Source: Verrucomicrobiota bacterium (GTDB lineage Bacteria; Verrucomicrobiota; Verrucomicrobiia; Limisphaerales; JAJOIW01). From it: 37,998 nucleotides of DNA. Positions 1 through 30,631 of the stretch are shown here, piece by piece. Within the stretch, counting starts at the first letter, position 1. Every line of letters begins with the position of its first letter. The translations under genes and the position numbers were made by a program. The DNA lies in contig JAJOIW010000021.1 in NCBI GenBank assembly GCA_021209225.1, positions 1 to 37,998 on the forward strand, written 5' to 3'. The notes beneath the pieces are model-generated. The model ran no database searches. It was not told the origin of the DNA and saw nothing but the letters and a program-made list of their open reading frames with translations.

Positions 1-833
1 CTGAAAAGGAACTCTCTGAGCGGCAGGACATTGAATGGCAATCCATCATATATGAACCTTAACATGAGAATGATCCCAGCAGCCTTGGAACCAATGGCAA
101 GAAAGGCAGTGGTTGGGGTTGGGGCACCCTGATAGACATCTGGAGCCCAGAATTGAAATGGAACGAGCGCTATTTTGAAACTCAGTCCACAGAAAATGAA
201 AAGCAGTCCTATAAGGAAGAGAGGGTCAGAGGCCTGATCGGCGTTGAGCAATTTGAGAACACTTAAATCCATGCTCCCGGCAGAAGCGTAAACCAATGCC
301 ATTCCGAATATCAGGACTGAACTCGATAACGCGCCCAGGATAAGGTATTTTATTCCTGCCTCTACGGAAGCCAGACGGTTCCTGTTGAAGGAGACCAGCA
401 CATAGAAACTGACTGTGATCAGTTCAACCGAGACAAACATCATGGCAAAATGGCGGGCACCAGCTGCAAAAAGCATCCCTAGCAACGCAAAAGTCAGCAG
501 GACAAAATATTCGCCCACCCCCGTCTCAAATCGCTTGGAATAGGACACAGAAACCAGAACGATAAAAATGGCGGCCACGAGGAAAATACGTTTGAGGAAG
601 ATGGAGGCTGAATCCACAGAGATGAGACGGGACAGGTTATCGTCCTGAAGCAGAAGGTACTCCATGCCTGCAATATCCAACCCGAAGTGTGCTATCAATA
701 CCAGCCCCAGCCCACTTGCAACAAAGTAGCCCAGCCATGCCTTGCGACGGGCCGGCACCCATAAATCGAGCAGGAGAGCTGCAAGCCCAATCAGCAATAC
801 CCAAATCTCAGTTTGAATTAATTTTGTGTTCAT
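1..833 (-). CDS. nuoN: NADH-quinone oxidoreductase subunit N (3' end outside window)
   Basis: Antiporter-like proton-pumping membrane subunit of complex I. Reading from the ATG at 833 gives an uninterrupted frame to the window edge (about 277 residues), starting MNTKLIQTEIWVLLIGLAAL and rich in hydrophobic segments. Family motifs are clear: a TM5 glutamate (FVSVELITVSFYVL), the TM7 lysine (LSFKIALVPFQFW) and the DVYQGAPTPTTAF stretch followed by SKAAG with the TM8 lysine. The histidine usual in the VPFH motif is Gln here. The frame is still open at base 1, so the C-terminal part, roughly 200 residues judging by the family, is missing only because of the window edge. It follows nuoM by 27 bp and is the last nuo gene visible in the operon. 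Confidence 0.95.
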   Translation of the reverse strand, partial: MNTKLIQTEIWVLLIGLAALLLDLWVPARRKAWLGYFVASGLGLVLIAHFGLDIAGMEYLLLQDDNLSRLISVDSASIFLKRIFLVAAIFIVLVSVSYSKRFETGVGEYFVLLTFALLGMLFAAGARHFAMMFVSVELITVSFYVLVSFNRNRLASVEAGIKYLILGALSSSVLIFGMALVYASAGSMDLSVLKLLNADQASDPLFLIGLLFIFCGLSFKIALVPFQFWAPDVYQGAPTPTTAFLAIGSKAAGIILMLRFIYDGLPFNVLPLREFLF

Positions 834-860: not shown

Positions 861-2426
861 TCACTTCTGGATTTGTGCCAGGTTGGGAGTGAGCGCATCC
901 CGATGCGGTGCATCCAAAACAGCGTCCTGGGATGATCGGCCCTTTTCTAATTGTTGAACCAGACCATTGATGGATATCTGAGCCTTCTGTGTGATTGTTC
1001 CAGGTAAAACACCGAAAAAGACCAAGGCACCAATCAGCAGGTTGATGGCAAATCTGGATGTGCCTGAAATATCCGGCAAGGTGGACCATTTTTCAGATAC
1101 CGGACCATGAAGCACATTCCTGAAAGCACGCAGCATATAAACCCCACCAATCACCAGCCCACTCCAGACAGCCAGCACCAGGGCAAAGGATTCCACATGC
1201 CCCCAAGCACCAAAAAATATCAGAACCTCACCCGCAAAATTGGCAAATCCCGGAACACCACACCCGGCAAAAAAAGCAATACCTAACGCCGTTCCAAGAT
1301 ACGGGGCCTGCTTGAGCAAACCTCCCATTTTCGTCATATCCAGATCCGGGGAAAAGCTGCGAAGCGCGCCAGCCAGCCCAAAACTGAGGGCAGCCAGAAA
1401 TCCATGTGCCACCATCACAAGTAAGGCACCGGTCACCCCGATATGATTATAGGCAACTAACCCCATGAAAACAAAACCCATGTGGGCCACACTTGAAAAC
1501 CCGATGAGCATGTGCAATTGCTTCTGACGCATCGCCGCCAGCCCCACCAGAACCAGGTTGCCCAGGCACAGAATTACCAGCAGCGATGCCCAATTCTCAC
1601 TGCCCAAAGGCAAAGCTGGAATGGCGAGTCGCAACAGAGCATACAGGCCGAATTTTTTCAATGCTCCAGCATGAATCATCGCGACACCGGTCGGAGCATG
1701 ACCATATCCCAAAGGAGCCCAGGTGTGAAACGGCCATAGGGAGACAAGCACCCCAAATCCAATCAGCAAAAGTGGGAAAATCCAGTTTTGAGTTGATTCG
1801 GACATTGGCGAATCAGCCACAGCAGCCAGAATGGCGAAAAAACTGAATGATGTGGCATTGGAGTGCAGGTAGAGTGCGATGATTCCTGCCAGAGCCAATA
1901 AGGCTCCCCCGGTCAGATAAAGTGTGAGTTTATAGCTGGCATATTTGCGCTGGGGGCCAGCTCCCCATCCACCAATGAGTATGAAAGTTGGAACCAACGC
2001 AAGTTCGTGAAAGAAATAGAATGAGAACACATCGAATGAGGAGAATGCACCGACCACGCCAGCTGACATGAGTGACAAGAGTAGGTAGTAGGTGCGTGGT
2101 CGCTCTTTGACATTGTCGGAGCAGGCTACGGCCGTAAAGCAAACTATGGAACTCATCAGCAGCATCGCGGCATTCAGAGGATCCATTCCCAAATACATCT
2201 GAATGCCAAGAGTGGGTACCCAGTCCTTCTGAAAAGCATAGAAAACACCGTCGGCATTCGCTGGATTCTGATCATACTGAACAAAAAGAGTGACAGCCAG
2301 AGCCGCCATAGCAAAATGAGTCAGCAATGCGATATTCCGGGCAACACCATTTTTGATGCCGGGAATCAATCCAATCGCGGCGGCCGCCAAAAGCGGAAGA
2401 AAAATTAATATGAGAACCGGGGACAT
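861..2426 (-). CDS. nuoM: NADH-quinone oxidoreductase subunit M, lacking the TM7 lysine
   Basis: Second antiporter-like proton channel of the complex I membrane arm; 521 residues, normal length, about 14 membrane segments. The TM5 glutamate (FFHELALVPTF), the TM8 lysine (HAGALKKFGLYALLR) and the TM12 glutamate (ANFAGEVLIFFG) are present. The TM7 segment reads IGFGVLVSLWPFHTWAP. Against E. coli NuoM, where the same place reads AFAVKMPVVP, the essential Lys234 is replaced by Leu227 (codon at 1746-1748). NuoL and NuoN of this operon keep their TM7 lysines. The gene sits between nuoL (36 bp upstream) and nuoN. Identity is certain; the functional consequence of the missing lysine is not. Confidence 0.97.
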   Translation of the reverse strand: MSPVLILIFLPLLAAAAIGLIPGIKNGVARNIALLTHFAMAALAVTLFVQYDQNPANADGVFYAFQKDWVPTLGIQMYLGMDPLNAAMLLMSSIVCFTAVACSDNVKERPRTYYLLLSLMSAGVVGAFSSFDVFSFYFFHELALVPTFILIGGWGAGPQRKYASYKLTLYLTGGALLALAGIIALYLHSNATSFSFFAILAAVADSPMSESTQNWIFPLLLIGFGVLVSLWPFHTWAPLGYGHAPTGVAMIHAGALKKFGLYALLRLAIPALPLGSENWASLLVILCLGNLVLVGLAAMRQKQLHMLIGFSSVAHMGFVFMGLVAYNHIGVTGALLVMVAHGFLAALSFGLAGALRSFSPDLDMTKMGGLLKQAPYLGTALGIAFFAGCGVPGFANFAGEVLIFFGAWGHVESFALVLAVWSGLVIGGVYMLRAFRNVLHGPVSEKWSTLPDISGTSRFAINLLIGALVFFGVLPGTITQKAQISINGLVQQLEKGRSSQDAVLDAPHRDALTPNLAQIQK

Positions 2427-2462: not shown

Positions 2463-4319
2463 TTAGTGAGTTATAAAATAAAGGAGCACTGAAAGTCCTA
2501 TGAAAAACCACAGGGCGTATGTCTGGAGATTGCCGGTCTGAAGTAATCGAAGGGCACGGCCCCCAAATTCAATGACCCCTTGAGAACCCTTGATGACCAG
2601 TCCAGCTAAAAATGCACGATCAAACCAGGCGGCAATCTTGGCTAAAAGTTCGTGTGTGCAGGCAATGAGAACCCGGTAAATTTCGTCGATGAAAAACTTA
2701 CCTCCCAATACCCAACTGATAAAACCGGCTTTTTCAACAACCGGATCCTCATCCACCTTTGAGTAGATCTGAAATGCCAGAACAGCACCCAGAAAGGCAA
2801 TAAATAAACCCAGAAAAGCAGGAAGCGGACTATGTTCAAATGGAAGAAGAAAGAGGTTGGCCCCCCCCGCATGATGGAATATTGTGCCAAAAAATTCCTC
2901 TATGTTGATCCAACCAGCCATGACTGATGGAACCGCGAGTATCACCAGAGGGATGATCATGCCAGTCGGCGCCTCATGCGCATGGCTGGCATTCTCAGTC
3001 CGGGGCTTGTTGAAAAACACGACAGAAACCAGACGAAACATGTAAAAAGCAGTGAGAAAAACAACCAGCAGGGAAATGAAAAATAATATGGGGTTACCCG
3101 ACTGGGCCGCAGCAATGATCGCATCTTTGCTGTAGAAGCCACTCAATGGGAATATGCCGCACAACGCCAGAGTACCGACCAGAAACAGACGGTAGGTGAG
3201 AGGCATTGACTGACGTAATCCACCCATCTTCCAGATGTTCTGCTCGTGGTGGACAGAGAAAATGATGGCCCCGGCCCCCAGGAAAAGCAATGCCTTGAAA
3301 AAGGCGTGAGTCGTCAGATGGAACATGGCGGCGGTGGGTGCTGAAAGTCCAACAGCCATCACCATATATCCCAATTGGGAAAGGGTGGAATACGCAAGAA
3401 TTCTTTTGATGTCGTCCTGTTGCAGGGCAATTAATGCGGCAACCAGCGACGTGATGGCTCCAATCCAGGCTATGACGTCCAATGCTGAACCCACTAACAT
3501 GAAGGAAATTTTGCACAGCATGAAAACCCCGGCTGCAACCATCGTGGCGGCATGAATCAATGCACTGACAGGAGTTGGGCCTTCCATCGCATCCGGAAGC
3601 CAGACATGAAGGGGAAATTGGGCGGATTTTCCCATCGCACCACAAAATAACAGCAAACCGGCAGGGACCAGCCAGCTTGAGAACTGCTCAGGATCAAAAG
3701 AATGAAAGAAGGATTCGAGTTTCGAAAAACTGATGTCGCCCGTATTGTGCCAGACCAGGATGATTCCCAGCAAGAAACCAAAATCACCGATGCGATTGAC
3801 GATAAATGCCTTGCGGCAGGCGTTGGCTGCACTCGGCTTGTAAAACCAGAATCCGATAAGAAGAAAGCTGCTCACTCCGACCAGCTCCCAGAATAAGAAC
3901 ATCTGGAGCAGGTTGTCCGCAACAACAATTCCCAGCATGGAAAAAACAAAGAGATTGAGCGCCGAGTAAAATCTGCTGAGATCCGGGTCATCCCGCATGT
4001 AAACCCGGGAGAAATAGAAAACCGCTGTCGAGACTCCAGTCACAATCATCAGCATCAGGACCGAGAGGCGGTTAATCTCCACACCAATGCTCACATCCAA
4101 ACCTTGAACCACGATCCATGGAAAATAGGAGTGTATGTCTTCTTTCATGGAAAAGAAGACGAGAAGGCTCAGGATAAATCCTATGCCTGTCACCAGCGAG
4201 GAAAGGTCTGCACTGAGTTGACCATGTTCACGGGTAATAAATCGAATCGCCAAACACATGAAGAGTGGCATTGCAAAAATGAGCCACACGACGTTCGAAA
4301 TCCATTCAGGGTTTTCCAT
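2463..4319 (-). CDS. nuoL: NADH-quinone oxidoreductase subunit L
   Basis: Distal antiporter-like subunit of complex I; 618 residues, the usual size, including the C-terminal region that forms the long lateral helix and final membrane anchor. Diagnostic motifs: FWELVGVSSFLLIGFW (TM5 glutamate), GAMGKSAQFPLHVWLPDAM (TM7 lysine), GPTPVSALIHAATMVAAGVF, and SGFYSKDAI (TM12 lysine). All residues of the proton path that I can place are present. It lies between nuoK (102 bp upstream) and nuoM in the single-direction nuo cluster. Confidence 0.97.
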   Translation of the reverse strand: MENPEWISNVVWLIFAMPLFMCLAIRFITREHGQLSADLSSLVTGIGFILSLLVFFSMKEDIHSYFPWIVVQGLDVSIGVEINRLSVLMLMIVTGVSTAVFYFSRVYMRDDPDLSRFYSALNLFVFSMLGIVVADNLLQMFLFWELVGVSSFLLIGFWFYKPSAANACRKAFIVNRIGDFGFLLGIILVWHNTGDISFSKLESFFHSFDPEQFSSWLVPAGLLLFCGAMGKSAQFPLHVWLPDAMEGPTPVSALIHAATMVAAGVFMLCKISFMLVGSALDVIAWIGAITSLVAALIALQQDDIKRILAYSTLSQLGYMVMAVGLSAPTAAMFHLTTHAFFKALLFLGAGAIIFSVHHEQNIWKMGGLRQSMPLTYRLFLVGTLALCGIFPLSGFYSKDAIIAAAQSGNPILFFISLLVVFLTAFYMFRLVSVVFFNKPRTENASHAHEAPTGMIIPLVILAVPSVMAGWINIEEFFGTIFHHAGGANLFLLPFEHSPLPAFLGLFIAFLGAVLAFQIYSKVDEDPVVEKAGFISWVLGGKFFIDEIYRVLIACTHELLAKIAAWFDRAFLAGLVIKGSQGVIEFGGRALRLLQTGNLQTYALWFFIGLSVLLYFITH

Positions 4320-12784: not shown

Positions 12785-13294
12785 TTACCCAGCTTTTTTC
12801 AGCGTGGCAAGAGTCGGTTCAGTGGCCACTTTGTTCTGGAGTTTCATCAGGGCATCCAGGAGGGCTTCGGGACGGGGCGGGCACCCGGCAACATACACAT
12901 CCACCGGGATGATGTTGTCCACTCCCTGCAAAACCGCATAACTCCGATACATCCCTCCGGTGGAGGCACAGGCACCCATGGCAATCACCCATTTTGGCTC
13001 AGGCATCTGATCATAAATCCGCTTCACAGCCAGTGCCATTTTATAGGTTACAGTCCCCGCAACAATCATAAGATCAGCCTGGCGTGGACTGAAACGCATG
13101 ACTTCCGACCCAAACCGGGCTATGTCAAAACGACTGCAGCTCGCAGCCATCAGCTCAATGGCACAACAGGCAAGACCCATGGGCATTGGCCAGATGGAGT
13201 TTTTGCGGAACCAGTTCAATACGGCATCGGCCCGGGTAACTATGACCTCTCCCTCAATTTTGGTGTTGTATCCAACTTCTTTGATATCTGCCAT
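12785..13294 (-). CDS. nuoB: NADH-quinone oxidoreductase subunit B
   Basis: Q-module subunit binding cluster N2, the last iron-sulfur centre before quinone; 169 residues. Ligands are Cys43-Cys44 ([12 protein letters not shown]), Cys109 ([10 protein letters not shown]) and Cys138 ([19 protein letters not shown]). It is the first nuo gene in this cluster: no nuoA lies between it and trpS, and the 146-bp gap is too short to hold one. The ATG at 13294 fits the family N-terminus; no strong Shine-Dalgarno motif is seen before it. Confidence 0.97.
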
Positions 13295-13382
13295 GGTCGT
13301 CTATTTTGGACTTGCCTTCTCCACTCCCTTCATTGACAGGGATACCCAAACCTTAATCAGGAAACAGAGTAGAGCAAGAACT

Positions 13383-13400
13383 TTGTGAATTTTTTCACAA
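13383..13400. promoter_or_regulatory. CRP/FNR-like palindrome upstream of nuoB
   Basis: TTGTGAATTTTTTCACAA is a perfect inverted repeat with the spacing TGTGA-N6-TCACA, the layout of a CRP-family operator. It ends 89 bp before the nuoB start, in the only space where the promoter of the nuo operon could lie. Alternative: the stem could be part of the trpS terminator region, since trpS ends 41 bp away on the same strand. Role is inferred from sequence and position only. Confidence 0.45.
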
Positions 13401-13403
13401 TCT

Positions 13404-13422
13404 CCGCCACGTCACAAGGCGG
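13404..13422 (-). terminator. Hairpin just downstream of trpS
   Basis: CCGCC and GGCGG arms around a 9-base loop, starting 18 bp beyond the trpS stop on the minus strand. The bases after the hairpin are not a clean U tract (they run into the neighbouring A6/T6 palindrome), so a rho-independent terminator is possible but imperfect. Confidence 0.35.
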
Positions 13423-13440
13423 GCTCGGTCCATTTGATTC

Positions 13441-14409
13441 TCATTCGGACAGTCCACACGATCTTTTGGCCCTGGATAATACCCCGGAAGCAATAAACCG
13501 GGCTTTCTCGGCTCCATCGGCCAGGATGGAATGGACATAGCCCAGATCCTTGGAAAGGGCATGACGCTTTTCCCGCGCCGCACGAAAATATTCCCAATAT
13601 TTCTCAAAAAGATTCTTTTTCAGGCTCCCGTAGCCATAACCTCCCAATCGCAATCTCTCCTCCTCCTCCTGGGCTTCCGAAGCAGGTAGCAGAAGCCTCA
13701 GATATTGGATCGCCAGATTGTTCTGGGCGTCGGGTTTCGGCTCAGAGATGTCCCGGCTGTCCATCAGCAATCCCATAACCTTCTTTCTCACTGCCTTCTC
13801 TTCACCGAAAATCTCAATCGTATTCCCATAACTTTTACTCATTTTTTGTCCATCCGTGCCAGGAATTGCCTCAACGTCCCCGCGAATTTTCGATTCCGGA
13901 AGGACAAATGTCTCGCCGTACAATTGATTGAATTTTATCGCAATGTCACGGGTCACTTCCACATGTTGCTTCTGATCCCTCCCAACCGGCACAATGTTTG
14001 AATCGTACAGGAGTATGTCTGCCGCCATCAAAACCGGATATGCAAAAAGTCCATGATTGAACTGAAGCCCCCGCGAGACCTTGTCCTTGTAACTGTGGCA
14101 TCGCTCCAGAAGTCCCATCGGTGTCACAGTCGTCAACAACCAGGTCAACTCCGTCACTTCCGGCACATCAGACTGACGGAAAAACACCACTTTTTCCGGA
14201 TCCAACCCACAGGCTAGAAAATCCAGAGCCACTCCCATGGTATATTCTCGCCGCTTGACCGGATCAAAAAGCGATGTCATGGAATGATAATCCGCAATGA
14301 AATAGTAGGCTTCCCCCTGAGTTTGCAGCTCAATCGAAGGCAGCATCATCCCAAAATAGTTCCCCAAATGTAATACCCCGGATGGTTGTATTCCTGACAA
14401 TATTCTCAC
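13441..14409 (-). CDS. trpS: Tryptophan--tRNA ligase
   Basis: Class I aminoacyl-tRNA synthetase charging tRNA-Trp in the cytoplasm; 322 residues, the usual bacterial size. The start is a GTG at 14409, preceded closely by a GGTGGAG stretch; MRILSGIQPSG is the normal N-terminus. The HIGH-type motif is at residues 11-17 (GVLHLGN), and KMSKS is at 189-193 with the expected GTDGQ lead-in. Other family blocks: FRQSDVPEVTELTWLL and PVLMAADILLY. It is co-directional with nuo but separated from nuoB by 146 bp that contain a hairpin and an operator-like palindrome, so probably a separate unit. Confidence 0.96.
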   Translation of the reverse strand: MRILSGIQPSGVLHLGNYFGMMLPSIELQTQGEAYYFIADYHSMTSLFDPVKRREYTMGVALDFLACGLDPEKVVFFRQSDVPEVTELTWLLTTVTPMGLLERCHSYKDKVSRGLQFNHGLFAYPVLMAADILLYDSNIVPVGRDQKQHVEVTRDIAIKFNQLYGETFVLPESKIRGDVEAIPGTDGQKMSKSYGNTIEIFGEEKAVRKKVMGLLMDSRDISEPKPDAQNNLAIQYLRLLLPASEAQEEEERLRLGGYGYGSLKKNLFEKYWEYFRAAREKRHALSKDLGYVHSILADGAEKARFIASGVLSRAKRSCGLSE

Positions 14410-20456: not shown

Positions 20457-20498
20457 AACTGAAGAGAGCCATTTTAGGATTTCAATGGAGAGGCGGAG

Positions 20499-22085
20499 CT
20501 ATCTGGATCGCGATCCAGCAGATTGCCACCACCCGCCTGCCGGTGTGAAATCCGGAGACAGAAACCGGGCATGTTCCATTTCACGACGAGGCATGACTTT
20601 GGCGGATTTATCATCCATGAATCTGGTATGGGCCAGTGGGTCCCAGTCCGGATTCGGTTCAGGCGCAGTGGCATGAATACTTTTCTGCCACTGCAACAAA
20701 TCCCTGGAAAGTGAAGTGACAAGATGTGGATATTCTTGGGACAGGTCCTGCGACTCACTCGGATCATTGTGAATGTGATAGAGTTCGAAGCGATGATCCT
20801 CAAGTAGTGGATCAGCTTCCAATATCCTTTTCGGATCATGGCGGTGGGTTCGCCACCTTGGTTTCCATAGTGGGGGTAGTGCCAGAACAGGGCGCGATCA
20901 GGAATAGTTTTTCCGACCAGCAGAGGAACCAGACTGAGACCATCCATATGGTGATTGGGCATGAGAGGCAGACCAGCCATTTCGAGAATGGTGGGGAAAA
21001 AATCGGTTCCTATGACTGGGACCTCACAGACTGCCCCCCGGGTGACTCCCGGCCAGAAAATGTAGAATGGCTGTCGAATCCCCCCCTTCCCATTGCCTGC
21101 CTTTTCCTCCACGCAGAGGAAGGCAACTGGTGGCAAATCCATCTCCCGACGAAACTCCCCCGTTGTCGGAGGTGAAAATAATGATGGTATTGTCGCTGAG
21201 GCCTGAGTCCTGAACCGCCTGCAGCACCAGTCCAACAGAGTCATCCAGGGCCTCCATCATTCCAGCGTAGACCGGATGATCCTGGACTTGTCGGACCTCC
21301 TGCGTGCGGTCCAGAAGGAACCGGGGCTGAGTGCGATGGGTGAGGCCCATGGTTTCGGCTTTAGTCCGGTATTTTTTCCATCGCTGCTCGGTGGTCTGGA
21401 TGGGAGCGTGAACTGAATAAAATGAGAGCATGGCAAAAAATGGGCGGGAGCCGTGAGCCTGACTTTTGATGAAGTTGGCGGTTTCTGAGGCGAGTCTGAT
21501 GGGGAGTTCCTCGCCCTGGGGGCCATCCATCAAATCCGGGTTTTTATAGGGAGAGAAAAACCACCTGGGGGGGTGCCGGCGTGGTGGCCCCCGATATTGA
21601 TGTCATACCCTTGATCGAGAGGTCCGAACCCAATATCCCCGAGGTGCCATTTACCGGCGAAAAATGTATGGTACCCGGCTGAGCGGAGGGCTTCGGCAAT
21701 GGTGGTATGTTCGAGTGGCAGTTGGGGCCGGTATTCAGCTGGCAATAAACGGGTATTTCGAGTCCATTTTTCCAGGCTGGTTCCCGCGATTGACAGCTAT
21801 GTAGTCGGTGATTCCGAGCCTGGCTGGGTATTGACCAGTTTGAATGGATGCGCGGGATGGGCTGCAAACCTGGCAGGCGGAATATCCCTGATCAAATCGC
21901 ATGGAGCGCCGGGCCAGGGCATCGATATGTGGAGTTTCGTGATAAGTGCTGCCCTCGCAGCTCAGATCCATCTTACCCAGGTCATCCACGAGGATGAAAA
22001 GAAAGTTGGGTTGTGCGCCATGGAGTGATTGAAGCAACCCAAGGAGAATCCATGTGAGGGATAAACAAGATAACCGGTGGACCAT
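20499..22085 (-). CDS. Exported type I sulfatase, interrupted by four one-base frame breaks
   Basis: Formylglycine-dependent sulfatase. The signal peptide is [20 protein letters not shown]; the metal site [13 protein letters not shown]; the formylglycine motif CSPSR within [20 protein letters not shown]; then [25 protein letters not shown], and the tail KGYWKLIHY joining [17 protein letters not shown]. These blocks lie in alternating frames. The breaks are at T5 21767-21771 (one base too many), A5 21556-21560 (one too few), C7 21080-21086 (one too many) and about 20799-20806 (one too few). Correcting them leaves a 528-residue protein with no internal stop. The insertions and deletions cancel, and each sits in or beside a homopolymer. 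This points to read errors, though a young pseudogene is possible. Substrate unknown. cutA follows. Confidence 0.85.
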
Positions 22086-22404
22086 GTGGGGAGTCTAGCT
22101 TGAATGAAGTCAATCAGGCAACGAGGAACAGACATGCAGTTTGAATAGCGGTTAAGCCCGCAGATCTTTTCAGGACACAGTATTGATGTGCAGGGCAGAA
22201 TTCCGGTTTGTTGAACTCACAAATAGGCGTATCAAAGTGGCGACAGGAGAACTGGTGGATGTGAATTGAAAATCGCATCAATCGCAGGCGGACCGGTGGC
22301 AATGACAAATTGAAGTGGTCAGGAATGGGGACTTCCGTGAATATTGCTGATCGAGATATTCGCATTTTGACTGGATAGGAAAATTGGTCATATTCAGACT
22401 GACT
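22086..22404. other. Divergent promoter region between sulfatase and Ig/propeller gene
   Basis: 319 bp separating two outward-facing genes, so promoters for both are expected here. A TTGACT hexamer at about 22368 is the only -35-like element I noted for the plus-strand gene, but it sits too close to the ATG at 22405 with no convincing -10 box. No coding frame is credible. Confidence 0.5.
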
Positions 22405-24863
22405 ATGAAGTTGAAATTACTCCCGCAAAAAGTATGGGCAAAGGCAGTGATAGGACTGATTTGCATTGGATTGGCAGGAAATGAGTTGAAGGCGACTGTG
22501 AGCCTTGAGACCAGGTGGTTTCAGTCGCCGGATATGGAACTTGATTTTCTGAGCACCGACAACACCCAACGCGGTGCGGCGATAAATCCCGTCAATGATA
22601 CCGTCGTGGTGGTAAGCCGCCGGAGTGGAAACGGTGTCTTTGTGCTGAGTGGAGAGGACGGCAGTCTTCTGAGGACGCTGGATGCCGGTTCTATAAGTGG
22701 TGGCACTTTTGGGGTCAATATGGTTGGTGTCGCTGAGGATGGAGTTATTTATGTGGGAAATCTTTCCACGAGTGCGGAATTCCCGAATTTCAAGCTCTAT
22801 CGATTTTCAACCGACGAGGAGGGATTGCAACCTGAGTTGGTATATGAGGGAGATCCGGGAGCCACGGAAGATGGGGCGACTTCGGGTCAAAGGTGGGGAG
22901 ACACCCTGGATGTGCGGGGCAGTGGGAATAATACTGAGATTGTCCTCGCCTCCCGCAATGGCACCAGAGCCGCCATATTTCAAACCAGCGACTCAGGCGT
23001 CAGCTTTACCGCCAAGGAAATTGCGATTTCCGGAATCAACAATGGCGACATTGGTCTGGGCGTAGGGTTTGGAGTTGGGCAAACGCTCTGGGGAACAGCC
23101 GCAGGCAGGCCGATATTTCATATTCAATACGATCTGGCCACTGGAGCCGGAAGTGTGGTGCGGGTCTTGGATTCAGTGGGTGTGCCTGCAGGACTGAGCA
23201 ACCTGGCCATAAGCCCCCGACGGGGAAATATCTTGCTGCCACAGATATCAACAGCCATGTGGTCAATGTGTATGATATTTCAGACCCAAACAGCGCACCA
23301 GTATTCCAATCCGCCTCAACCATGCCAACCCAGAATGGCAATACGAATGGAACGGGAGCTCTGGATTTCGATGGAGACACATTAATGGTGCTTGAGACAA
23401 ACAATGGAGTGGTGGTTTTCAATCTGATTGAGTCGACGACGGTTGTGGCACCGGAAATCATTACTGAACCCGTGGGTGGGACCATCTTTGAAGGTTCAAA
23501 TTTCGAGTTTTCCATTGTGGCGACGGGTTCCACACCTTTGGAATACCAGTGGTATAAAGATGGTGAGCTGATTGATCTTGCCACGAGTTCGGTGTTGCGA
23601 CTCGAACAGGTCAGTTCGGAACAAAGTGGAGTTTACAGTGTGGTAGTGAAAAATTCAGCTGGATCAGACACCAGCCTTGAGGTTCAGCTGACGATTCGCA
23701 AACCTGTGGATCCGAATCTGTTGACAGCTGCCTGGAGCCTGGCACCAGGGGACCGGACATTTCTGGGCACCGCCAATACAGAGCGCGGTCTTGCTTACAA
23801 CCCGGCTGGAAATCATCTGCTTATAGTCTCACGCAATGGGGGGCTCAGTTTAAACGTCCTCGACGCGGATACGGGAGAAACGCTCCATGCCATGGACACC
23901 GATCCCGGGTTGGTCTCCGGAGGCACCTTTCCATTGAATATGGTTGCCTCGGGAGATGATGGGGCGATCTATGCGGCCAATCTCACTTTGGATGGATCCA
24001 CGACTGCGTTCAAAATTTACTCCTGGGAAAGCGATGCACCGGATGCCCTGCCCTATGATTCGTTTTTCGGTGACCCGGGAAATGGAGCTGCGGAACGCTG
24101 GGGAGATTCGCTTCATGCCAGAGGATCCGGGAAAAACACTCAAATCATCGCAAGTTCCAGATCGGGCAATTTTGTCGCCATTTTCACCACCGATGATGGA
24201 CTGAATTTCAATTCCACCCTCATTGGTGGAGTCAGCGGAGGATTGGGAGTGAGCTTTGGATCCGGCAATACTTTCTGGACAACTTCAGCAGGCGCCAACC
24301 TGGACCTGTATGAGTTTGATCTTGAGGCAGCCACAGCGACGCGTGTGGTGAGTTATGATGGTTCTGTCTTTCCCTCAGGCATCTCGCCTATCGCCTTCGA
24401 TCCTGCGGGCGAATTCCTGGCGGGCATTGATCTGGGTGGCGGGGGATTACTCAAGTTGTTTGAATACAGGGGGAGCGATTCCGACCCTCTGATTCTCCTG
24501 GAAAAACCGTTTCCGGTGAGCAATCCCAATGGGAACGGGGTCGGGGCTGTCGCCTTCAGCACCAACCCCAGACGACTCTTTGCCTTGAATACAAACAATG
24601 GCATCGTCGCCTTTGATCTGGGAGAATTAACTGTCCAGCCCACGACTGTCCGCATCACCAATGCTTTCATCAATGCGGATGGACAATTTGAACTGCAGAT
24701 AGTTGGGGCTCCCGGAAGCACTGTGAACCTCAGCTCAGGCAGCAACCTGATAATTTGGGGAAATACACAATCGGTGGAACTGGATGAGGAAGGCAATGGA
24801 ACCTATACCTTACCGGTCGACAGTTCCACCTCAGCTCTGTTTGTCAGAGTGGAAAAGCCTTGA
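22405..24863 (+). CDS. Exported protein with duplicated propeller-like module and Ig domain (one frame break)
   Basis: The start is the ATG at 22405 (MKLKLLPQKVWAKAVIGLIC, a signal peptide); an in-frame TTG at 22384 only adds seven residues. Frame one runs to about 23228; the rest is one frame over. Adding an A to the AAA at 23226-23228 joins ISPRRGKYLAATDINSHVV and gives 819 residues. The protein contains two similar modules (about 30-300 and 410-730), both with RGxAxNP, SGGTF-x-x-NMV, RWGD-x-L-x-x-RGSG and SRxG blocks, separated by an Ig-like domain (YQWYKDGEL, EQSGVYSVVVKNSAGSD). The end resembles the C-terminal domain common in Verrucomicrobial surface proteins. The modules may be DUF4623-like. 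Probably cell-surface; function unknown. Confidence 0.8.
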
Positions 24864-28291: not shown

Positions 28292-28683
28292 ATTGAGCAG
28301 GCAGTCATCCGCTGCCAGGTATGTATTGGCCCATGGGAAGAAGTGCCGGAAGGGGAAAATGGCTGAGTATATGTATCTCCCGGGAAACTTTGGATCTGGA
28401 TATCAGGTATGCGATTGGATGCCAGCCAGTTGAGAAAACTCCGCGGCACCGGCATCACAGCCCTTCCGGATTCAGGATATATCGATTTTGTGGTTATGAA
28501 GGCAATTTCAGGAAATCATGAGCCTGGGACCATGTGTCACAAATCGAATTTTTTTTGGAAACGAGGGATGAGAACCCATACTGTATGAGCATGGCGATGG
28601 ACCTTGGGGAAAATCGGCAGGCAATGAACAATCATGTCGATAATGAGATCATGACAAATGAATGGCATTTGAAAAAGAAGCTT
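28292..28683 (+). other. Region between pseudopilin and DUF1592 gene
   Basis: 392 bp. A GGCAG/CTGCC hairpin begins nine bases after the pseudopilin stop (28300-28316) but lacks a T tract. The DUF1592 frame is open from 28534, so part of this stretch could be its N-terminus if an earlier Met is used; the residues before 28684 look like random polar sequence. No other gene is seen. Confidence 0.45.
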
Positions 28684-30631
28684 ATGGACAGAATCCTCCG
28701 GTTTGGGCCCGCTGGATCCAGAGCTTTGTGGATAATAGGCGTGTGTGTCCTTTTTTGCGGGGGAGCTGTGGGTGGTGAGGAACTGGAAATGCAGTTCGGC
28801 GGTGAGATACAAAAAATAGTGAACAAAAACTGCTCCGAGTGCCATGGACCCAAGAAAAGCAAGGGCGGTCTGAACTTTGATGATTACCCTGATTACATGT
28901 CGGTTGTGAACGATGTGGATTTATGGAAGATGGTATTAGAGAGGGTCCAGGCATCTGAGATGCCACCGAGTGGGAGTCCGGAAATGGACTATAATCAGAG
29001 GCAGACCTTGATGAACTGGTTGAGGAAGCTACCCACGCCTGAGTTGGATTGTGACCAATTGGCATCGGACCGGACTGAGAACTATTACCAGGGGTATGTG
29101 ATGAGTCGCAGACTGACCCGCCATGAATACGAAAATTCCATCAACGATCTTTTTGGGGTCGATATCCGCCTGGCAGGATTACTGCCGGCGGATGGTTCTG
29201 GTGGGGAAGGTTTTGATACGAATGGGAGCACGCTGTTTTCGTCGCCGCTGCTGGTTGAGAAATATCTACTGGGAGCAGAATTGGCTGTCAAAGCACTGAT
29301 TCGATCCCCTCTGGCTGAGCAGGATTTCACGTCTATCGCCCCCATCAGCCAGGGGCAGACTGAAAAGGACCGGGCGTATTTCATTCTGGATTACTTTGCC
29401 AGGCGTGCATTCAGGCGGCCATTAAGTCCGGATGAGGTGGCGCGGTATTTGAGTCTTTACGAAGTCATGCGCGATAGTGGTGAGGAATTCAGGATATCTG
29501 TGGGTTATGCTCTGGAGGGAGTGCTCATGTCTCCGAATTTCCTTTTTCTCATGGAGAAGGAATCGGAAGAACCCGGCACCCACCCACTGGGATCCCATGA
29601 ATTGGCTGCGAGGCTCGCCTACTTTTTATGGTCAAGTTTGCCGGATGATCGATTGATGGCGCTGGCCGACTCGGGTGAGATCTTGAAGACTGAAGTCATT
29701 GAGGCGGAGGTTCACAGAATGCTGAAGGATCCGCGCGTTCATGGATTAGCCCGGAGATTTGGCATCCAATGGCTCGATCTGGATGACCTGGCCAAGACAG
29801 TCCAGCCGGATTCCCGGATCTATCCGGAATTTGATGAGAACCTGCTGGATTCAATGAAAGGTGAACTGGATTACTTTTTTAGTCCATCTGCTGCGGAATG
29901 ATCAGTCCCTGCTGACGATCATTGAGAGTGATTATACATTTATCGACCGGTCGCTTGCACAGTTGTATGGACTGGATTGGCCTGAGGATGCTGAAGTGGA
30001 TGGCAGCGGATTCCGCCGGGTTTTATTGAATTCGGAATCTCCCCGCGGCGGGGTTCTGGGGATGTCAGCGATACATCTGGCCACCTCGTATCCCACGCGC
30101 ACGAGCCCGGTTTTACGTGGCCGGTGGATATTGGAAAGCCTGATAGGCGATGAGGTTCCTCCTCCGCCCCCGAATGTGCCGGCATTGGTCGAACCAGGCG
30201 AGCAAGTGAAACCAGCCACCTTGAGGCAGCAACTGGAGGAACACCGCAAAAATCCTGATTGTGCCGCCTGTCACAACCGCATGGACCCATTGGGCTTTGG
30301 ATTGGAGAATTTTGATGCACTGGGCCGGTGGAGGACGCAGGAGAATGGCCTGGCAATTGATGCCTCCGGCACGCTTCCATCCGGGGAATCTTTTTCCGGA
30401 CCTGCCCAGCTCAGAAAAATTATCCTGAGCAAAAAGGATAAAGTGATGAAGCATCTGGTGCGGAAGATGGTTGGTTATGCCTATGGCAGGCAATTGAACA
30501 AGTTTGATCGCTGTGTGATTGAGGAAGGATATCGGGCTCTTCAGGCAAATGAGTTCCGGCCGTCCTCGCTCATTTCAACGATTGCAACCAGTTTCCCATT
30601 CCGGCACAGATTCTACGCTAAACAGGATTGA
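28684..30631 (+). CDS. Exported DUF1587/1592/1595/1588/1585 protein with two CxxCH motifs (one frame break)
   Basis: Planctomycete/Verrucomicrobial-type multi-domain protein. The chosen ATG at 28684 follows AAAAAGAAGC and gives a signal-like segment ([20 protein letters not shown]). Then come a cytochrome-like CSECH (Cys50-His54), DUF1587 ([20 protein letters not shown]), DUF1595 ([20 protein letters not shown]), DUF1592 ([20 protein letters not shown]), DUF1588 ([20 protein letters not shown] and [19 protein letters not shown], a second CxxCH) and DUF1585 ([18 protein letters not shown]). The frame breaks at the T6 run 29875-29880; one T fewer fuses [20 protein letters not shown] and gives about 648 residues. 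It pairs with the DUF1552 gene downstream. Haem binding is inferred from motifs; function unknown. Confidence 0.87.

Follow-up and report, generated by a model that had tools for sequence, protein, structure and literature searches.

The window, that is, the whole stretch of 37,998 nucleotides from a Verrucomicrobiota bacterium analyzed here, begins at the start of its contig (G000:C15) in an assembly with a completeness of 57.7%, and opens with a minus-strand nuo operon in the order nuoN (cut), M, L, K, J, I, H, G, F, E, D, C, and B. The nuoM gene (positions 861 to 2426, minus strand) is an uninterrupted open reading frame of 521 amino acids that matches the complex I fold and the NCBIfam NuoM profile TIGR01972 (357.3 bits against a cut-off of 263.8), and it lies between nuoL and nuoN as expected of nuoM, the three genes L-M-N closing the nuoB-to-nuoN operon. 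On one side, nuoL (2463 to 4319, minus strand) encodes a protein of normal length (618 amino acids) that retains the canonical charged residues. On the other side, nuoN (3 to 833, minus strand) has lost its 3' part at the contig start; the remaining fragment retains GluTM5, LysTM7, and LysTM8, and its TM12 Lys falls outside of it. At the far end of the operon (13294 to 13441), nuoB has no nuoA directly upstream and trpS comes at once, the sole nuoA match of the assembly being located on another contig (G000:C104:14662-14967). Elsewhere in the window, overlapping same-strand frames (20474 to 21533, 22384 to 24863, and 28534 to 30631) look like single genes split by frameshifts, probably a sulfatase, an Ig-domain protein, and a cytochrome/DUF protein of planctomycete type, which may be pseudogenes or assembly errors.

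NuoM is one of three subunits with which complex I pumps protons, and LysTM7 of these antiporter-like subunits is an essential residue according to textbooks. The earlier note had claimed that this lysine is missing from the window NuoM, and it is truly absent: in the TM7 motif GFGVLVSLWPFHTW (residues 223 to 236; 1719 to 1760, minus strand), residue 227 is a Leu encoded by CTT (1746 to 1748, minus strand) in place of K234 of Escherichia coli and K232 of Paracoccus denitrificans. A phmmer comparison with solved complex I subunits placed Leu227 without gaps on the TM7 Lys of E. coli (3rko), of P. denitrificans (8qby), and of two cyanobacterial chains (6hum and 6tjv). As also claimed, the frame is undisturbed at this codon and the change requires more than one substitution, CTT differing from AAA or AAG at three bases. 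Likewise, the TM5 Glu, TM8 Lys, and TM12 Glu were found as announced (E141, K258, and E400), and the TM7 lysines are retained by NuoL and NuoN of the same operon. The search for a second nuoM that the earlier note had called for revealed no other copy in the 57.7%-complete assembly, in which nuoH was counted once. The only other antiporter match was rejected as a candidate, as it consists of a short piece joined to an acyltransferase-like frame where a contig ends (G000:C242; L004, 778 to 1626); there, the acyltransferase-like frame runs into the antiporter-like piece, probably as the result of an assembly chimera.

Alignment of the remaining key residues, all on the minus strand, revealed a mixture of conserved and altered positions. 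On the P. denitrificans 8qby row, L227 corresponds to K232, A237 to L242, Y241 to H246, and K258 to K263. GluTM5 (E144 in E. coli) is kept and is preceded by His instead of Trp or Phe (His140-Glu141; 2004 to 2009). Ala237 (1716 to 1718) replaces the gating Leu and Tyr241 (1704 to 1706) replaces the uptake His, the latter in 170/170 sequences of the subtype defined below. On TM8, the classical lysine is present (Lys258, K265 in E. coli; 1653 to 1655) and is accompanied by an extra Lys257 (1656 to 1658; 170/170 in the subtype), where NuoM proteins with the TM7 lysine have Leu or Ser, and by His252 (1671 to 1673; 170/170), which alignment with E. coli NuoL placed at the position of NuoL H254. Met306 (1509 to 1511) stands before TM10 in place of Arg or Lys (R313 in E. 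coli, K311 in P. denitrificans), while His315 (H320 in P. denitrificans; 1482 to 1484), His341 (H346; 1404 to 1406), and Glu400 (E405; 1227 to 1229) are kept. The last is GluTM12, found rather than LysTM12 in 170/170 sequences of the subtype as expected of NuoM, as is the joint presence of GluTM5 and LysTM8. The LysTM7-GluTM5 pairing stated for each antiporter-like subunit (PMC10212512) is missing, residue 227 being Leu. Judged from its sequence, the window protein is by ancestry a NuoM, but one that lacks the canonical ion pair. The AlphaFold model (mean pLDDT of 89.9) retains the break of TM7 (helix 210 to 227, gap, helix 236 to 243) and superposes on solved NuoM chains of bacteria, plants, and cyanobacteria with an rmsd of 2.0 to 2.6 Å and a TM-score of ~0.82 to 0.94; the predicted fold is that of an ordinary NuoM with a broken TM7.

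The earlier note treated the loss as peculiar to this enzyme, a view that does not survive comparison, as the trait is instead fixed throughout a large subfamily of NuoM. All 111 NuoM from the order of the window and its near relatives (Limisphaerales, Pedosphaera, and Verrucomicrobia subdivision 3) have Leu at position 227, and E141, K257, K258, H252, H341, and E400 are invariant among them. The lysine is also absent from the ordinary NuoM of every other sampled family of the class. Altogether, none of the 188 NuoM placed on what we call the K-less branch has the lysine; these non-independent samples, with many related rows, comprise 170 type I sequences (159 distinct), which represent the ordinary Verrucomicrobiota type, 11 type II sequences from operons with tandem nuoM, 4 Bacteroidales-like sequences, and 3 odd ones. 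Every one of the 170 type I, 4 Bacteroidales-like, and 3 odd sequences has Leu at this position, and the 11 of type II have either Leu or Met. Since Leu227 is invariant (111/111 and 170/170) despite an overall identity to the window protein of only ~40 to 54%, its conservation goes far beyond chance. Conversely, the lysine is present in 30/30 K-type NuoM (E. coli, Paracoccus, Rhizobiaceae, Acinetobacter, Actinomycetota, and a few Verrucomicrobiota copies), with phyla other than Verrucomicrobiota thinly sampled and through plasmid records only. NuoM of Phocaeicola, Prevotella, and Bacteroides (L199, L200, and L203) are also K-less and have no replacement lysine. Residues were read from protein matches, because related classes vary around the motif and a strict phylum-wide scan for it at the DNA level is too narrow. 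In NuoL and NuoN of ~75 to 80 related loci, the canonical charged residues are retained wherever covered.

In a tree of 84 NuoM, a single branch parts K-less from K-type sequences with a support of 100. With the TM7-TM8 columns (residues 224 to 262) left out and NuoN, which retains the Lys, as the outgroup, the K-less rows still formed one clade (bootstrap 92, SH-aLRT 88), recovered in 93% of 200 bootstrap trees as expected of a subfamily; as the outgroup branch is long, the position of the root is less certain than the K-less/K-type split. The absent lysine is, by phylogenetic comparison, an old inherited feature of a NuoM branch and not a mutation of a single genome. One ancient loss in the K-less ancestor is most likely, and the simplest reading would place it before the separation, or exchange, of the Verrucomicrobiota and Bacteroidales sequences. 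Gene conversion from nuoN was considered and not adopted: W-A-P and Tyr are shared in TM7b, but the two resemble each other only in part, and Lys is present in the nuoN segment.

Several columns changed along with LysTM7. In K-less sequences, Pro+2 is replaced by Ser, Gly, or Ala, the gate Leu (L242 in P. denitrificans) by Ala or Ser, and the Trp or Phe before GluTM5 by His, Tyr, or rarely Asn (Met in odd rows), and the Arg or Lys before TM10 is mostly gone, odd rows excepted. As these changes all fall on, or close to, a single deep branch, their coupling to the loss of the lysine goes beyond what statistics can establish. Other changes are specific to subtypes. In type I, TM8 gains K257 and H252, and Tyr takes the H246 position; type II adds Lys147, six residues past GluTM5; in Bacteroidales-like sequences, H252 is the only new one, with neither K257 nor a TM5 Lys, so that K-less subunits do not in general have a lysine as replacement. 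GluTM5, the TM10 and TM11 His, and GluTM12 are retained in all type I sequences, which argues that the proton axis is under selection. K257 is found in all 170 type I and the 3 odd sequences, among which K258 is replaced in 5/173, by T, N, or Q (L075, L086, and L179 to L181). All five retain K257, which therefore looks like the working, indispensable lysine there, being kept even where the classical LysTM8 was lost. At the sequence level, K257 answers the suggestion of the earlier note that a compensating basic residue be looked for. In three of these sequences from one family of another class (L179, L180, and L181), which have Gln for the classical TM8 Lys, Ser also replaces the TM11 His (H341) and GluTM12 is retained.

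Compared with canonical NuoM/ND4/Nqo13 of E. coli, P. denitrificans, and Thermus thermophilus, the window protein shares the fold, the nuoL-nuoN placement, the broken TM7, GluTM5, LysTM8, the TM10/TM11 His, and GluTM12, and differs by the lack of LysTM7 and Pro+2, by Ala and Tyr at the L242 and H246 positions, by the extra K257 and H252 on TM8, and by the His before GluTM5. The TM8 His recalls MrpA/NuoL, in which MrpA adds a His (H273, at the NuoL H254 position) to its TM8 Lys, whereas the TM8 Lys of MrpD-like subunits has been described as their sole protonatable TM8 residue (PMC7419157), a rule that type I NuoM breaks; unlike the K-less NuoM, the window NuoL and related NuoL keep LysTM7. The same Lys-to-Leu change, noted in 2016 and 2022, is known from HycC of E. 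coli formate hydrogenlyase-1 (L208), which also keeps GluTM5 (E135) and LysTM8 (K239) (PMC5061711, PMC9474812). Unlike the window NuoM, encoded in a full nuo operon alongside canonical NuoL and NuoN, HycC belongs to a hydrogenase complex with two membrane subunits, and its GluTM5 and LysTM8 proved dispensable; conservation would argue against such a dispensable axis in the window NuoM. A full-text search of open-access papers, most subscription papers being outside its scope, returned no paper that mentions a K-less branch among the NuoM of complex I; we regard this branch as a new variant within a known family, with HycC Leu208 as the precedent.

Many relatives have operons with two adjacent nuoM; in the two that were read fully, the nuoN-side copy is K-less and the nuoL-side copy has the lysine. 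Two loci (L213, 7691 to 12810, and L214, 5665 to 12240) correspond to a second complex I operon with tandem nuoM and a NuoL frame of 683 to 703 amino acids. In the K-less copy of tandem operons, the Lys six residues past GluTM5 is conserved. 2M complex I is described as having four antiporter-like subunits, two nuoM genes, and a lengthened NuoL; by that description, the nuoL(long)-nuoM-nuoM-nuoN operons of the relatives resemble it, with one NuoM K-less, and the window, with one K-less nuoM and a NuoL of 618 amino acids, does not belong to this type.

We propose, with a probability of roughly 55%, that the K-less NuoM, an old branch of NuoM/ND4, represent a rebuilt pump, in which the lateral chain would still be pumping while the ion pair and the uptake gate have been remade. 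In this model, (i) GluTM5 (E141) would take charge from NuoN, (ii) the TM8 Lys, His315, His341, and GluTM12 (E400) would hand charge on to NuoL, and (iii) the intrasubunit Glu-Lys ion pair and the TM7b uptake gate would have been rebuilt. In type I, the partner of GluTM5 would be the invariant K257, acting in the role of LysTM7 as if the lysine had moved to TM8, probably assisted by His140 beside the Glu and by the NuoL-type His252. In type II, the new base would be the Lys six residues past GluTM5, and in Bacteroidales, His252 alone would be new. For Bacteroides fragilis, the NUO complex showed no NADH:quinone activity, which its authors attributed to missing NuoEFG and poor expression. The earlier note had proposed that this complex I pumps fewer protons or uses a rerouted path. 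Rerouting is possible, but a lower proton count finds no support here and is disfavored by P. denitrificans ND4 point mutants, in which turnover was lowered or abolished while the pumping stoichiometry was unchanged (PMC9802314). Furthermore, long persistence without LysTM7 suggests that the complex was more likely re-engineered than uncoupled. From conservation, we infer that E141 pairs with K257 and that the stoichiometry is unchanged.

The main rival to a rebuilt ion pair is that K-less NuoM, placed between NuoN and NuoL, serves as a relay or spacer that takes up and pumps no proton of its own, and that the complex pumps ~3 H+ per 2 e-. In its favor, TM7b shows joint changes in its N-side uptake features (Leu for LysTM7, Ala or Ser for L242, and, in type I, Tyr for H246), and in P. 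denitrificans, where the Glu-Lys pair is essential, the single mutants K232Q, L242A, and H246F each essentially abolish catalysis (PMC9802314); moreover, the tolerance of HycC to the loss of GluTM5 and LysTM8 would fit. However, we consider this reading unlikely, given the invariance of GluTM5, the TM10/TM11 His, and GluTM12 and a stoichiometry that was never altered in the P. denitrificans mutants. In addition, NuoN has Ala or Thr and Tyr at the L242 and H246 positions, and the second-copy NuoM of 2M enzymes often has Tyr at H246, so that altered residues there do not prove a closed channel. More doubtful appears the proposal that the TM7 lysine is simply dispensable, NuoM pumping without a Glu-Lys pair, and that K257, H252, and K147 are incidental lineage differences: Bacteroidales-like subunits do persist without a replacement lysine and the extra TM8 and TM5 lysines vary among branches, yet LysTM7 mutation kills activity in E. 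coli and P. denitrificans, and the conservation of K257 and H252 at 170/170 is unexpected of incidental changes. Finally, a normal lysine hidden by misalignment, frameshift, or sequencing error, although conceivable in a fragmented assembly with probable frameshifts elsewhere in the window, has a negligible chance given the gapless alignment to solved NuoM chains, the intact frame, and the recurrence of this residue across independent assemblies, among them single-contig genomes.

Most current models of complex I coupling take the TM5-Glu/TM7-Lys ion pair as their switch. Our study describes a large family in nature in which one subunit has lost half of this switch while its neighbors are intact. 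Comparison within such a family can test directly whether pumping needs the pair, what may substitute for it, and whether residue changes that are singly fatal are compatible when combined. Tentatively, K-less NuoM could even constitute a second working design of the antiporter unit, with GluTM5 paired via TM8 or via His alone and possibly with another H+/2e- ratio. If the ratio differs, the complex I energetics of much of Verrucomicrobiota and of gut Bacteroidales would need a recount, as would the five-proton estimate for 2M enzymes with one K-less NuoM. The K-less branch, spanning Verrucomicrobiota and gut Bacteroidales, therefore constitutes a natural test of complex I proton pumping.
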